Origin: an uncultured Lachnospiraceae bacterium
GTDB taxonomy: Bacteria > Bacillota > Clostridia > Lachnospirales > Lachnospiraceae
Assembly (NCBI GenBank): GCA_905236025.1
Contig: CAJOOB010000024.1
Location: 1-32,683 of the forward strand
DNA: 32,683 nt
Direction: 5' to 3'
In this document: piece by piece, positions 4,864 to 32,683 of the stretch
Layout: each line of letters starts with the position of its first letter
Numbering within the stretch: position 1 is the first letter of the stretch
The notes under the pieces: model-generated
Seen by the model: the letters and a program-made list of their open reading frames with translations, nothing else
What the model was told of the DNA's origin: nothing
Database searches by the model: none
Translations under genes and position numbers: made by a program

Positions 4864-5555
4864 GCGCTCTTTTTGTTGCTTTTTTCAATCTCTTTCAGAA
4901 GACGTTCCGCCTCTTCTTTTTGCTTCTTTTCTTCTTCTAAGGCAGCTTCCTTCTTTTCTGCGAGTCTGTCAATATATTCTTCCAAAAGTCTTTTCTTTAA
5001 AGTAATATCAACCGCAAGGTCCGCTAAAATAATGAAATCACGGGATTCAGCAATTGCTTCGTTGTCGGCAATCTGATTATCAACGATGTTGCATATCTTT
5101 TCAATATCCTTATCAACTCTGTCCGCAACCTTTGGAGAAGAGGTGTAAAGGTATGAATAGATGTCCACAAGGTTTGGGCCTTCCTGATTGTTGAAATGCT
5201 TATCCGTTACGTTTTCCATAAGAGTAGTAATGTCCGAAATGGATAGAACGTTCTTAAGATAGTAGATCATAATCATTAGTGCAAGATGGTCTTTGGAATA
5301 TTTCTTTTTTTCCGGAGAAGGCATGAGATTTGCTTTTGCATAATTATTAATCATTGTCTTTGTAAGAATCTTGTCTTCTTCTTTTCTTTTGTAGTATGTA
5401 AGATGTTCATCCATGAAGGTTGTAACCTGGTCCATATATAAATCAATGTTTGGAATATCCGAAGGATTAATACCCTTTAATTTTGAACGGATATTTCTGT
5501 ATATCTTCATAATATCAACCGGTTCGTTATCAAATTGATTCTTGGGATTGTCCAT
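4845..5555 (-). CDS. DUF1836 domain-containing protein
   Basis: LTKTMINNYAKANLMPSPEKKKYSKDHLALMIMIYYLKNVLSISDI; Lys/Glu-rich coiled-coil C-terminus. Confidence 0.8.
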   Translation of the reverse strand: MDNPKNQFDNEPVDIMKIYRNIRSKLKGINPSDIPNIDLYMDQVTTFMDEHLTYYKRKEEDKILTKTMINNYAKANLMPSPEKKKYSKDHLALMIMIYYLKNVLSISDITTLMENVTDKHFNNQEGPNLVDIYSYLYTSSPKVADRVDKDIEKICNIVDNQIADNEAIAESRDFIILADLAVDITLKKRLLEEYIDRLAEKKEAALEEEKKQKEEAERLLKEIEKSNKKSAKKGTV

Positions 5556-27842: not shown

Positions 27843-28517
27843 ATGCAGTATGAAGTAAAAGGCGGAAATCTGCCGGTAGTATTAATCAAACTTGAGCAGG
27901 GCGAACGTGTAACCTGCGAATCGGGTGCCATGGCCTGGATGGACAGAGGCATCAGGATGGAAACTGAAGGCGGCGGAATTGGTAAGATGTTTGGAAGAGC
28001 ATTTACAGGAGAATCTCTCATGCTTAACCATTACACGGCAGAACGAGCCGGTGAAATTGCTTTTAACTCAAGCTTTCCGGGCTCAATTAAGGTTATTGAA
28101 GTAACACCTGAGAAACCTGTGATTGCACAAAAGGGCGCTTTCCTTGCATCATGCGGAAACATCAACATGAGCGTTCACTTTCAGAAAAAAATTGCCAGCG
28201 GTTTCTTTGGCGGCGAGGGCTTCCTTATGCAGAAATTTGAAGGAAACGGACTTGTGTTCCTTGAAATTGACGGTTCGGCAATTGAATATGAATTACAGCC
28301 GGGTGAAAGCAAAGTTGTTGACACGGGTTATCTTGCAATGATGGACGCAACAGTAAGTCTTGATATTGAAACGGTTAAGGGTGTAAAGAATGTGCTATTT
28401 GGCGGTGAAGGCTTCTTTAACACAGTACTTACGGGCCCGGGTAAAATTGTCTTACAGACAATGCCAATCTCCGGCACCGCAAGCGTTATTGCAAGATATA
28501 TTCCGTCAGGAAACTAA
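27843..28517 (+). CDS. AIM24 / TIGR00266 family protein
   Basis: MQYEVKGGNLPVVLIKLEQGERVTCESGAMAWMDRGIRMET...GEGFFNTVLTGPGKIVLQTMP. Confidence 0.9.
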   Translation: MQYEVKGGNLPVVLIKLEQGERVTCESGAMAWMDRGIRMETEGGGIGKMFGRAFTGESLMLNHYTAERAGEIAFNSSFPGSIKVIEVTPEKPVIAQKGAFLASCGNINMSVHFQKKIASGFFGGEGFLMQKFEGNGLVFLEIDGSAIEYELQPGESKVVDTGYLAMMDATVSLDIETVKGVKNVLFGGEGFFNTVLTGPGKIVLQTMPISGTASVIARYIPSGN

Positions 28518-28528
28518 ATAAAAGCTTA

Positions 28529-28558
28529 AAAAGGACGGCTTTTGTCGTCCTTTTTTTA
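28529..28558 (+). terminator. Rho-independent terminator
   Basis: aaaaggacggcttttgtcgtccttttttt. Confidence 0.85.
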
Positions 28559-28577
28559 AAGCGTGACAAGGAGAAAT

Positions 28578-28979
28578 ATGGGAGATTTTAAAAACAAAGA
28601 AGAAGCGACAGAATTTTTTAAGGATGATTTATTTGCTGTGTCAAACGGTATTACAATAGATGAGCTTACCGACGATGGCTGTGTTTGCAGCATGATTATT
28701 AAGCCTGAGCATAGAAATGCGATGGGCGGAGTAATGGGAGGAGCGATATTCACACTCGCAGACTTTGCATCGGCTGTTTCATCAAACAACGACCATTTAA
28801 AAACGGTTGGGCTTAATGCAAGCATCAATTATCTTTCAACATCTAAGGGAACTAAGCTTATTGCGACGGCATATAAAGAAAAAAACGGCAGAAACACCGC
28901 GGTTTACAGAGTAAGTGTTAAGGATGACCTTGGAAAAGATATTGCGTTATTTGTTGGAACGGGATATAAAATGGACTAA
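28578..28979 (+). CDS. PaaI family (hot-dog) thioesterase
   Basis: PEHRNAMGGVMGGAIFTLADFASAVSSN...NASINYLS; RBS aaggag. Confidence 0.88.
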   Translation: MGDFKNKEEATEFFKDDLFAVSNGITIDELTDDGCVCSMIIKPEHRNAMGGVMGGAIFTLADFASAVSSNNDHLKTVGLNASINYLSTSKGTKLIATAYKEKNGRNTAVYRVSVKDDLGKDIALFVGTGYKMD

Positions 28980-28983
28980 TAAA

Positions 28984-29466
28984 ATGGATAAAATACAGGC
29001 AGACAATTTAATAAAATCGCTCATATCTGCAAATATCACGATTTCTTGTATGGAAAGTTGCACGGCTGGGATGATTGCATCCATAATCACAGACACCGAG
29101 GGAGCTTCCGCCGTTTTTAAGGGAAGTTACGTTACTTACTCAAACGAAGAAAAGATAAGAATGGGCGTGAATGCAGACGTAATCAGGGATTATGGAGTGT
29201 ACTCAAGGGAGTGCGCAAGTGAGATGGCTTGGGTTGTAAAACGTGATTTTAAGGTGGATGTGGCTATCGGCATCACGGGGAATACGGGCAATACGGATGT
29301 GAATAACCCGAAGGGGAAGGTTGGAGAAGTCTTCTTTTGCATTATAAAAGGGGATGAGGAGCATACGTATTCATATAAGATTGACGTGAAAAATTTAAGC
29401 AGACATGAAATCAAGAAGGCTTATGCATATCAGGTATTTACTGAGCTTTCTGAACTTTTAAAATAG
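28984..29466 (+). CDS. pncC: CinA C-terminal family (nicotinamide-nucleotide amidohydrolase)
   Basis: TISCMESCTAGMIASIITDTEGASAVFKGSYVTYSNEEK...VAIGITGNTG; stand-alone C-terminal domain. Confidence 0.85.
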   Translation: MDKIQADNLIKSLISANITISCMESCTAGMIASIITDTEGASAVFKGSYVTYSNEEKIRMGVNADVIRDYGVYSRECASEMAWVVKRDFKVDVAIGITGNTGNTDVNNPKGKVGEVFFCIIKGDEEHTYSYKIDVKNLSRHEIKKAYAYQVFTELSELLK

Positions 29467-29492
29467 AGGACACAAAATGTTCACAAAAATTA

Positions 29493-29519
29493 TTAGCACT
29501 CACCATTGACGAGTGCTAA
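29493..29519. promoter_or_regulatory. CIRCE element (HrcA operator)
   Basis: TTAGCACTC-accattgac-GAGTGCTAA, perfect 9-9-9. Confidence 0.95.
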
Positions 29520-29534
29520 TAAAAGTGATATAAC
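29506..29534 (+). promoter_or_regulatory. Sigma-A promoter overlapping CIRCE
   Basis: TTGACG (29506-29511) inside the CIRCE spacer, 17 nt, TATAAC (29529-29534). Confidence 0.8.
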
Positions 29535-29636
29535 ATAGTCAGAAAGAGAGAAAAGCAATAAATACTTAGTATCTCTAACTTTAACATATAGATATTTACT
29601 TGGAAAACCAAGCAAGAATTAAAGGAGGAATGACTT

Positions 29637-30122
29637 ATGTTATATTTACCTGATGTTTTTGGAAAAGATTTGATGGATGATTTCTTTGGAGATACGTTTG
29701 GATTATTTGACAAAGAGATGTGCAATTTAGATAACGAATTTTCAAAGAAGAACCCTTTGTACGGCAAGCACGCAAAGAATCTGATGAAGACTGATGTGCG
29801 TGAACTTGAAAATGCGTATGAAGCAGACATTGAGCTTCCGGGCTTTAAGAAGGAAGATATTAATGTTTCACTTGAAAACGGATATTTGACAATTACCGCT
29901 GCTAAAGGCCTTGATAAAGAGGAAAAGGACGAAAAGAAGGGCAAAGTGATCCGCAGCGAACGTTATGTTGGTTCACTTTCAAGAAGCTTCTATGTTGGCG
30001 AGGAAATAAAGGAAGACGATATTAAGGCTAAACTTGAGCACGGCGTACTGATGCTTACAATTCCAAAGAAGGAAGTAAATCCGGAAGTACCTGCAAAGAA
30101 GACAATTATGATTGAAGGATAA
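29637..30122 (+). CDS. Hsp20/alpha-crystallin small heat-shock protein
   Basis: TDVRELENAYEADIELPGFKKEDINVSLENGYLTITAAK...GVLMLTIPKKE. Confidence 0.95.
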   Translation: MLYLPDVFGKDLMDDFFGDTFGLFDKEMCNLDNEFSKKNPLYGKHAKNLMKTDVRELENAYEADIELPGFKKEDINVSLENGYLTITAAKGLDKEEKDEKKGKVIRSERYVGSLSRSFYVGEEIKEDDIKAKLEHGVLMLTIPKKEVNPEVPAKKTIMIEG

Positions 30123-30185
30123 CCGACCATAATGATGATAAATTAATTATTTTGCCTCCCCCCAAAGAAAGTGCAAAACAGCAAA

Positions 30186-30221
30186 GGACCCCTTTCTCAG
30201 TAAGTGAGAGAGGGGCTTTTT
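30186..30221 (+). terminator. Rho-independent terminator
   Basis: cccctttctcagtaagtgagagagggg followed by cttttt. Confidence 0.85.
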
Positions 30222-30399
30222 GTGATGTAAAACGCACTATTTAAGTAAATTATCTCAGGCTTTAAACAAAATAATCACGCAAATTTTACTGTAAATTATG
30301 AAGAAAATATAGTAAAATTAAATCAGTGAATTATGTGAAAAAAGTAAATAGAATAAACCACGCATATGCAGTATCTAAATCATATAAAGGAGTGCATTT

Positions 30400-30612
30400 A
30401 TGGACAAAAACGAAACTAAACACAGCTACGGGGTTGTTAACAGACTGATGTACGGAATGGCTGAATTTTACAACGGCGGGTGTTTTGTTATCATTATAGT
30501 AAATGTCTGGACCGTCAACACAAACGAGCATTTGATGATTTGCAAAGAATACGGTGTGGATGCGGTAATAACAAATTATCCTGCAAAAGCAAAAGCTCTG
30601 TATGAAGGATAA
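30400..30612 (+). pseudogene. Chimeric remnant: MFS/GPH transporter-like N-terminus fused in frame to a glycerophosphodiester phosphodiesterase C-terminus
   Basis: MDKNETKHSYGVVNRLMYGMAEFYNGGCFVII (transporter-like) then VNVWTVNTNEHLMICKEYGVDAVITNYPAKAKAL (GDPD C-terminal pattern). Confidence 0.7.
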
Positions 30613-31389
30613 TTGCAAAAATACCATGAATATGTATATTACCTTTGGCGGGCGGGATTTACCGTGTACTTTTTGGAGCAGCGCGGGTACGGATACTCTG
30701 AAGGAAAGCTTGCAGAGCCGGACTTGGTGTATATTGATTCGTTTGATACATATGTGGAGGATTTAAACGAGTTTGTGACAAAGGTGATAAAGCAGGAAAG
30801 CGCGGGACTTCCGCTTATAATGCTTTCACATTCAATGGGTGGTGCAATTGGGGCGCTTTACCTTGAAAGTTACCCGGATGTCTTTAAAGCGGCCGTGTTT
30901 TCGTCTCCAATGCTAAAAATGAATACCGGGGGAATGAGCCGGTTTAAAATAAATCTTGTAAAGGTTTATATGCTTCTTATGCACAAGCAAAAGAGTTTAA
31001 GCCCGGGGCAGAAACGTTTTGCCACAGAGCCTGATTTTGAAAACAGCAGTGCCTTATCAAAAGCGAGGTTTGATTATGTATTTAAGATGCGGGTGTCGGA
31101 TTATCATTATCAGACATTTGGTGCAAGCCTTGGCTGGGTGATGGCTGCGTTAGATTCTGAAAAAAAGATTTTAGAAAATGCATATAAAATAAAAATCCCG
31201 GTTGTGCTTATTCAGGCGGGGATGGACAGCCTTGTAATGCCGCGGGGGGTTGAACTTTTTATGCAAAAGGTGCCGCAGGCAAGGAAACTTATGTACGAAG
31301 ATTCAAAGCATGAAATCTTTAATGCGCATGATGATGTGAGAAAGAAGTATTTTAATGACGTTTTAGAAGAACTGAACAGCTTTTTGTAA
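30613..31389 (+). pseudogene. 5'-truncated alpha/beta hydrolase (lysophospholipase/PldB-like)
   Basis: Begins mid-domain KYHEYVYYLWRAGFTVYFLEQRGYGYSEGK; nucleophile LSHSMGGAIGALYLESYPD; only TTG as possible start, directly after a TAA; upstream HG segment missing. Confidence 0.75.
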
Positions 31390-31392
31390 GAT

Positions 31393-31433
31393 AAACCTCT
31401 TTATGCGGTTATGGCCCGGTAAAGAGGTTTTTG
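31393..31433 (+). terminator. Rho-independent terminator
   Basis: aaacctcttta...taaagaggtttttgt, 11-bp stem. Confidence 0.8.
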
Positions 31434-31546
31434 TACACAAATTCAGATGGAAAAATAAATCTTTGAATGTTATAATTATTTTAGAAATTTGGTCGTTAAT
31501 ATATTGTGTGAACGTAAATAAACCTTTTTAATCAGGAGGGCTTATT

Positions 31547-32242
31547 ATGAGAAAGAAAGATGTGGAAAATATGGAAAAACCCGCAAGAAGAAGGTTTAAT
31601 CCAAGCAGATTTTTGGTAATATGCATACTTGTTGCTGCAATTGTTTTTTGTGTATGGTTTTCAATTCATATATCAAGCAAAGAATCCGGCAGCACCATCA
31701 TCACCGAAGAAAAGAAAATCACAAGCATAACCATTAGCTCAGGAATTGAGGATATGGGAAGGCTTATAACAGCGGAATATTACTACACCCATATGGAATA
31801 TTACGAAGAATCAAAGAAAGCGTGGGGATTTACCATTCCTTTTTCAACAAAGTCCTTTATTCTTAAGTGCACGGGCGTTGTAAATGCCGGAGTTGACTTT
31901 ACGGAGGTAAGGGTAGATGTGGATGATGTGTTAAAGACAATCACGGTATATCTGCCAAATGCCGAGGTATATGATAATTACGTGGATACAGACAGCGTGG
32001 AATTGTGCGACGTGGATGAGGCGCTTTTTAATAAGATTGAAGCGTCAGATGCAACAGATCTTTTGGATGAAATAAACGATGCGGAGCTTTTGGCTGCGCT
32101 TGATAAGGGCGTACTTGAAACGGCTGAGAAAAACGCGGAAGACATTGTTGAAAGCTTTGTAAGAAGCCTTATAGATGACGATGAATACGGAATCATTGTA
32201 AGCTTTACAGATGATACGGACGAGGAAGAAACCAAAGAATAG
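31547..32242 (+). CDS. DUF4230 domain-containing membrane-anchored protein
   Basis: N-terminal TM; ITSGIEDMGRLITAEYYYTHMEYYEESKK-type DUF4230 pattern; RBS aggagg. Confidence 0.8.
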   Translation: MRKKDVENMEKPARRRFNPSRFLVICILVAAIVFCVWFSIHISSKESGSTIITEEKKITSITISSGIEDMGRLITAEYYYTHMEYYEESKKAWGFTIPFSTKSFILKCTGVVNAGVDFTEVRVDVDDVLKTITVYLPNAEVYDNYVDTDSVELCDVDEALFNKIEASDATDLLDEINDAELLAALDKGVLETAEKNAEDIVESFVRSLIDDDEYGIIVSFTDDTDEEETKE

Positions 32243-32256
32243 CATAGAGGAATCAT

Positions 32257-32683
32257 ATGAAGAATCAAAATACCAAAAAGAAAATAAAGTTTTGCATAGA
32301 GGTTTTAATCGTTGTGTTTACGGCTATTGGCAGTGCGATTATGTTTACAAACACTGACACAACCACGGGCCTTGCGGATACGGGCCTTTCAAACCTTAAG
32401 TACTTTACGGTGCTTTCAAACCTGCTTTGCGGAATGGTGTATTTTGTGGACTTAATCCTTTATCTTACGGTAAAGAAAAACGTTCACTTTATGTTAAAAT
32501 TCTTTGCTGTTTCGGCAGTGGGTCTTACTTTTGCGGTTGTTGCATTCTTTTTGCAGCCCCTTTATTTTGGCACAAACCTTTATAAGGACGGAAACCTCTT
32601 TTTTCACCTTTTGGTGCCTGTAACGGCAATGATTGAATTTATGTTTTTTGAAGGAGAAAATGGAAAGATTCCGTTTAAAAATA
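32257..32683 (+). CDS. Polytopic membrane protein, 3' truncated by window (Pr6Pr-like)
   Basis: ATG at 32257 with agagg RBS: MKNQNTKKKIKFCIEVLIVVFTAIGSAIMFTNTDTTTGLADTGLSNLKYFTVLSNLLCGMVYFVDLIL, open to the window end; not in the ORF track. Confidence 0.65.
   Translation, partial: MKNQNTKKKIKFCIEVLIVVFTAIGSAIMFTNTDTTTGLADTGLSNLKYFTVLSNLLCGMVYFVDLILYLTVKKNVHFMLKFFAVSAVGLTFAVVAFFLQPLYFGTNLYKDGNLFFHLLVPVTAMIEFMFFEGENGKIPFKN

Follow-up and report, generated by a model that had tools for sequence, protein, structure and literature searches.

The window analysed here, the whole of contig C24 (32,683 bases), belongs to a fragmented 1.84-Mb MAG of 176 contigs that is 85% complete. The source organism is a rumen-type gut bacterium, and the closest relatives of the hydrolase described below are found in rumen Lachnospiraceae, mostly Butyrivibrio. 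The comparison set consisted of 397 genomes of the family, which belong to other genera, with about 100 loci searched by profile; no hydrolase relative of the same genus was found in the named genomes, the best match, from another genus, having 54% identity. On the plus strand, two frames lie end to end: a 70-aa ORF (30400-30612) and a frame of 258 codons (30613-31389), in the same reading frame with a TAA between them. Upstream, 3' of an Hsp20 gene at 29637, there is an intrinsic terminator with an 11-pair stem plus T-run (30189-30224, plus strand), the one terminator-like site found in the region vs. a chance mean of 1.1, i.e., near chance expectation. Judged from this one site, the operon whose decay is described here would be a separate unit beginning downstream of it. 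No RNA families were found within 28500-32683. A perfect CIRCE element, TTAGCACTC-N9-GAGTGCTAA, is present upstream of the Hsp20 gene (29493-29519; chance expectation 0.01), which suggests that this small heat-shock gene may be under HrcA control; this stretch has DNA matches in further family genomes too. The two frames are flanked by this Hsp20 gene and by a 231-aa gene at 31547. Hsp20 and the downstream genes of the window were not found beside the operon in relatives, except at locus L082, where an Hsp20 gene stands downstream of the hydrolase.

The 70-aa ORF carries complete signals, with a Shine-Dalgarno-like AAAGGAG (30386-30392, plus strand) 7 nt 5' of its ATG at 30400, which is the kept translation start of a transporter gene, and a TAA at 30610-30612. 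A preliminary description, made from the letters of the window, had held that the chimera kept a start codon and that it joined about 32 aa of a transporter N-terminus to the last about 37 aa of a glycerophosphodiester phosphodiesterase (GDPD). Separate searches with the two halves and Pfam agree with this, the transporter being refined to an MFS_2/GPH-like type. When the N-terminal 33 residues are used as the query, residues 7-32 match the N-termini of five MFS_2 transporters of ~500 aa (L085, L084, L082, L087, and L088), with E values of 2.6e-8 to 2.3e-4 that come from a small ORF set, the loci around related hydrolases. Identity in the best genomes is 65-67% across 26-27 residues (HSYGVVNRLMYGMAEFYNGGCFVII of the window vs., e.g., IGTRLMYGMAEFYGGGAFVII of transporter relatives). 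This transporter part (30400-30495, plus strand) amounts to the first ~32 codons of a protein that has about 490-510 aa in relatives; the ~12 transmembrane helices over ~450-500 aa of MFS_2 (PF13347) are not there. The remainder (30499-30612, plus strand) comprises the last 37 codons and the stop of the GDPD, as is also seen in an alignment with full-length GDPDs. Residues 33-62 correspond to the final 30 positions of the Pfam GDPD family (PF03009, 2.3e-5, profile 214-243 of 244), and the C-terminal 37 aa searched alone give the same family (1.6e-5, profile 215-243/244); the catalytic N-terminal part, with HRGA and later motifs, is missing. Thus, the two parts, which meet around the peptide FVIIIVNVWTVNTNEHLMICK, derive from two different, normally separate genes. 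No relative of the entire 70-aa ORF was found among the 397 family genomes, where nearly all strong matches span one half only, the exception being one GDPD match extended across residues 7-67 at 38% identity. A DNA search found no donor copy elsewhere in the genome, and no other GDPD was found in this MAG of about 85% completeness; another genomic copy as the donor was accordingly rejected.

The 258-codon frame (30613-31389, plus strand) has no internal stop and encodes the body of a monoglyceride-lipase/PldB-like alpha/beta hydrolase (PF12146, 3e-40, profile 18-236/239), the Hydrolase_4 match starting at profile position 18. Homologous open frames are 322-435 aa long. Hydrolase matches at E<=1e-20 occur in 70/397 family genomes, and all but one begin at residues 1-3. 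In an alignment of 93 sequences, the other sequences have at least 62 residues (median 76.5) upstream of the window's first, and the HG motif, present in 91 of 92 relatives, is missing from the window hydrolase. This agrees with the earlier view of a hydrolase that starts mid-domain without its HG. A hydrolase naturally beginning at this residue was rejected, since homologues carry those 62 or more upstream residues; neither this outcome nor a full-length homologue of the 70-aa ORF, the two results that the preliminary description had set against its own reading, was encountered. In a model of a full-length hydrolase (L117, 23 sequences, mean pLDDT 94.6), strands are assigned to residues 34-40, 46-52, and 59-64 and the HG to 65-66, and the part retained in the window starts near residue 71, downstream of all of these. 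The window protein therefore lacks the N-terminal strands and the oxyanion-hole HG motif of the Hydrolase_4/monoglyceride lipase-PldB-like family; in a model of it, confidence goes down to 63 around residues 21-30 and the first strand is unassigned. The nucleophile elbow (GHSMGG-type), the Asp, and the His are kept, with HSMGG, D205, and H233 invariant in the 23-sequence alignment. Of the 32 columns with at least 90% conservation among relatives, 4 differ in the window (H26Y, V59I, L70M, and L96F), mildly more than its general level of divergence would predict (residual z 2.9, rank 5 of 93).

Among the profile-searched loci, eight contain an intact MFS_2-GDPD-hydrolase operon (L085, the same as L122, L088, L115, L116, L117, L118, L130, and L148), in cultured Butyrivibrio and in several MAGs. 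The operons of Butyrivibrio WCD3002 (L115), MB2005 (L116), and P6B7 (L117) have the same three families as the window, in the same order and on the same strand, but are intact and about 2.2 kb longer. Other loci contain the GDPD-hydrolase pair alone, without a leading transporter. In L060, L089, L142, and others, the pair is led by a distantly related MFS transporter; the lead transporter thus differs by lineage from the L085/L115 types, the first operon gene having been swapped. The window MAG itself has other MFS_2 genes that are cut at contig ends, one on contig C146 (L099/L197) and one on contig C16 (L098/L196, 1-846, minus strand); the latter adjoins a glycoside-hydrolase-like gene and encodes ~170 transporter residues followed by about 100 Ser/Thr/Asp-rich residues that are not MFS-like.

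In all eight intact operons, both source genes of the fusion are complete and colinear, and the sequence absent from the window lies between the equivalents of its breakpoints. At the first junction (30493-30501, plus strand), transporter codon ~32 runs in frame into the VNVWTVN segment of the GDPD, and the equivalent stretch in these operons is 1994-2167 nt long. Therefore, a first deletion of about 2.0-2.2 kb would have removed the greater part of the transporter and the GDPD up to about codon 205. The second junction (30612-30619, plus strand) jumps from hydrolase codon ~5 to codon ~70, with roughly 0.2 kb missing and the frame shifted. Its position is indicated by Butyrivibrio WCD3002 and MB2005, in which the GDPD ends TAT GAA CAA GGT TAA and the hydrolase begins inside this end, at ATG AAC AAG GTT AAT TTT TTA GGT (MNKVNFLG). 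The window has the equivalent TAT GAA GGA TAA TTG with an overlapping ATG at 30602, and this ATG AAG GAT AAT (M-K-D-N; 30602-30613, plus strand) is the probable native hydrolase start, homologous to the overlap TATGAACAAGGTTAATTT in L115 and L116 and similar to that in L120. Because the same overlap occurs in Butyrivibrio and in the window, the GDPD end and the hydrolase start are probably both native, and the second deletion probably lies inside the hydrolase gene. The reading from ATG 30602 is 54 codons long, with a stop at 30764, and the hydrolase body is in a different frame. Consequently, the head of the hydrolase is absent as had been claimed, but the break is probably not at the GDPD stop. 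Likewise, the TAA, the TTG, and the hydrolase stand in one frame, as first described, but TTG 30613, which has an SD-like sequence at a distance of only 2 nt, is disfavoured by the surviving ATG and is probably not a genuine start; since the native start and the body are in different frames, the frame shared across the TAA is most likely a coincidence.

Taken together, these results make it very probable that the locus is what two deletions have left of a three-gene operon. In this model, an ancestral operon of MFS_2 transporter, GDPD, and monoglyceride-lipase/PldB-like hydrolase would have lost about 2.0 kb in one deletion, which fused the beginning of the transporter in frame with the last 37 GDPD codons, and about 0.2 kb in another, which took hydrolase codons ~5 to ~70 and left the native start reading into an early stop. 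Since the intact colinear operons of relatives are about 2.2 kb longer, two such deletions best explain the locus, and the earlier claim of at least two deletions joining parts of three genes stands. A repeat-mediated or mobile-element deletion was rejected, because direct repeats were not found in 30350-30700 and no mobile element was seen at the locus.

Against the two-deletion reading, it can be held that the MAG is fragmented and that the comparison is with other genera, with no undeleted sister allele among them. It might thus be postulated that two stretches were lost during assembly or scaffolding and that the operon is intact in the organism, an error that 176 contigs, incomplete recovery, and the cutting of other MFS_2 genes at contig ends would all favor. 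However, two separate junctions lie only ~115 bp apart with no run of N, the surrounding sequence offers no direct repeat able to mislead an assembler, the missing GDPD is absent from the rest of the assembly, and similar internal deletions exist in an isolate genome (INlla16). Given the spacing of the junctions, the lack of repeats and N runs, and the absence of the GDPD elsewhere, misassembly is unlikely, and the deletions would be real in the organism's DNA. The same closeness of the junctions, on one strand and colinear, could also be explained if one complex event with two jumps, by template switching or replication slippage, made both of them. This variant of the two-deletion reading, which does not exclude it, is rather unlikely: no diagnostic repeat was found, and in G382, L119, and L120 only the transporter has decayed.

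The open hydrolase body speaks against decay, since 258 uninterrupted codons with the catalytic Ser/Asp/His motifs kept and conservative substitutions would also fit a protein in use. In simulation, the median number of random substitutions before a stop arises in 258 codons is 15, with 95% within 55, and these are rough bounds. Such a frame, together with the retained ribosome-binding site, could mean that selection maintains the truncated hydrolase, the 70-aa fusion, or both as functional products, the deletion-born fusion having gained a role. Yet three core strands and the HG motif of the oxyanion hole are gone from the hydrolase, the start that survives does not share the frame of the body, the SD-like sequence is only 2 nt from TTG 30613, and no homologue of the fusion occurs in the 397 family genomes; selected function is thus highly improbable. 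With its good ribosome-binding site, the fusion may be translated as a by-product, but nothing points to a function for it, and the products would be non-functional. If the remnant is unconstrained, the stop-free 258 codons indicate, in terms of the simulation, that the event looks recent, dating back no more than a few percent of sequence divergence as a rough bound.

A modest, unsystematic tally finds decay of the same transporter family in four or more further genomes, with 18 near full-length matches (about 700 bits or more) in the 397-genome survey. In G382 (L091, contig C33), the start and ribosome-binding site are kept, and six codons are followed by an in-frame join to residue ~288; about 280 codons are gone in frame, and the downstream GDPD and hydrolase are intact. 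In G093 (L192, contig C15), a 67-aa ORF with a start codon (5219-5422, minus strand) combines ~38-46 N-terminal aa with the extreme C-terminal end of a transporter from the same MFS_2 family, an independent in-frame collapse. L119 has a ~90-codon middle fragment, and the isolate genome of Butyrivibrio INlla16 (L120) has an internal deletion plus frameshift. Three of these five decays, window included, keep start and frame, a pattern that would be compatible with selection for unbroken translation into the downstream genes, although so few cases prove nothing. A stronger proposal is that the transporter in rumen Lachnospiraceae repeatedly decays by losing internal segments in frame while its start and ribosome-binding site persist (window, G382, and G093), because downstream translation is needed or the mini-proteins are active; the 70-aa fusion would then be one of these small proteins, and expressed. 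This is very unlikely.

Fusions that arise when a genomic deletion brings parts of different genes together have been described across bacteria (Kaul, Rossine, Brinda, Baym 2026 preprint, PMC12803068): acrR-glcD stays in frame, in mlaE-htpX the fragment fused on is out of frame, and narX is described as a composite from three genes of one operon. As in these, a deletion in the window unites pieces of separate genes in one open frame; those events were called against same-species sister strains or in a screen of isolate genomes, whereas this one is known from a MAG compared with other genera. For short ORFs without full-length homologues, an origin as pieces of genes that once functioned has likewise been put forward ('The Journey to smORFland', PMC2447293). 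The 70-aa ORF resembles them in its length, its lack of a full-length homologue, and its origin from gene fragments, but, unlike in those orphans, both source genes are still recognizable. The locus thus looks real but represents ordinary gene decay, a further instance of a described kind rather than a new kind or mechanism. It provides a clean example of a short ORF without full-length homologues arising by intra-operon deletion and a warning to annotators that the 258-codon hydrolase should not be called a gene with a TTG start. Furthermore, the recurrent decay hints that the transporter of the transporter-GDPD-lipase operon of rumen Lachnospiraceae may be dispensable in some niches.
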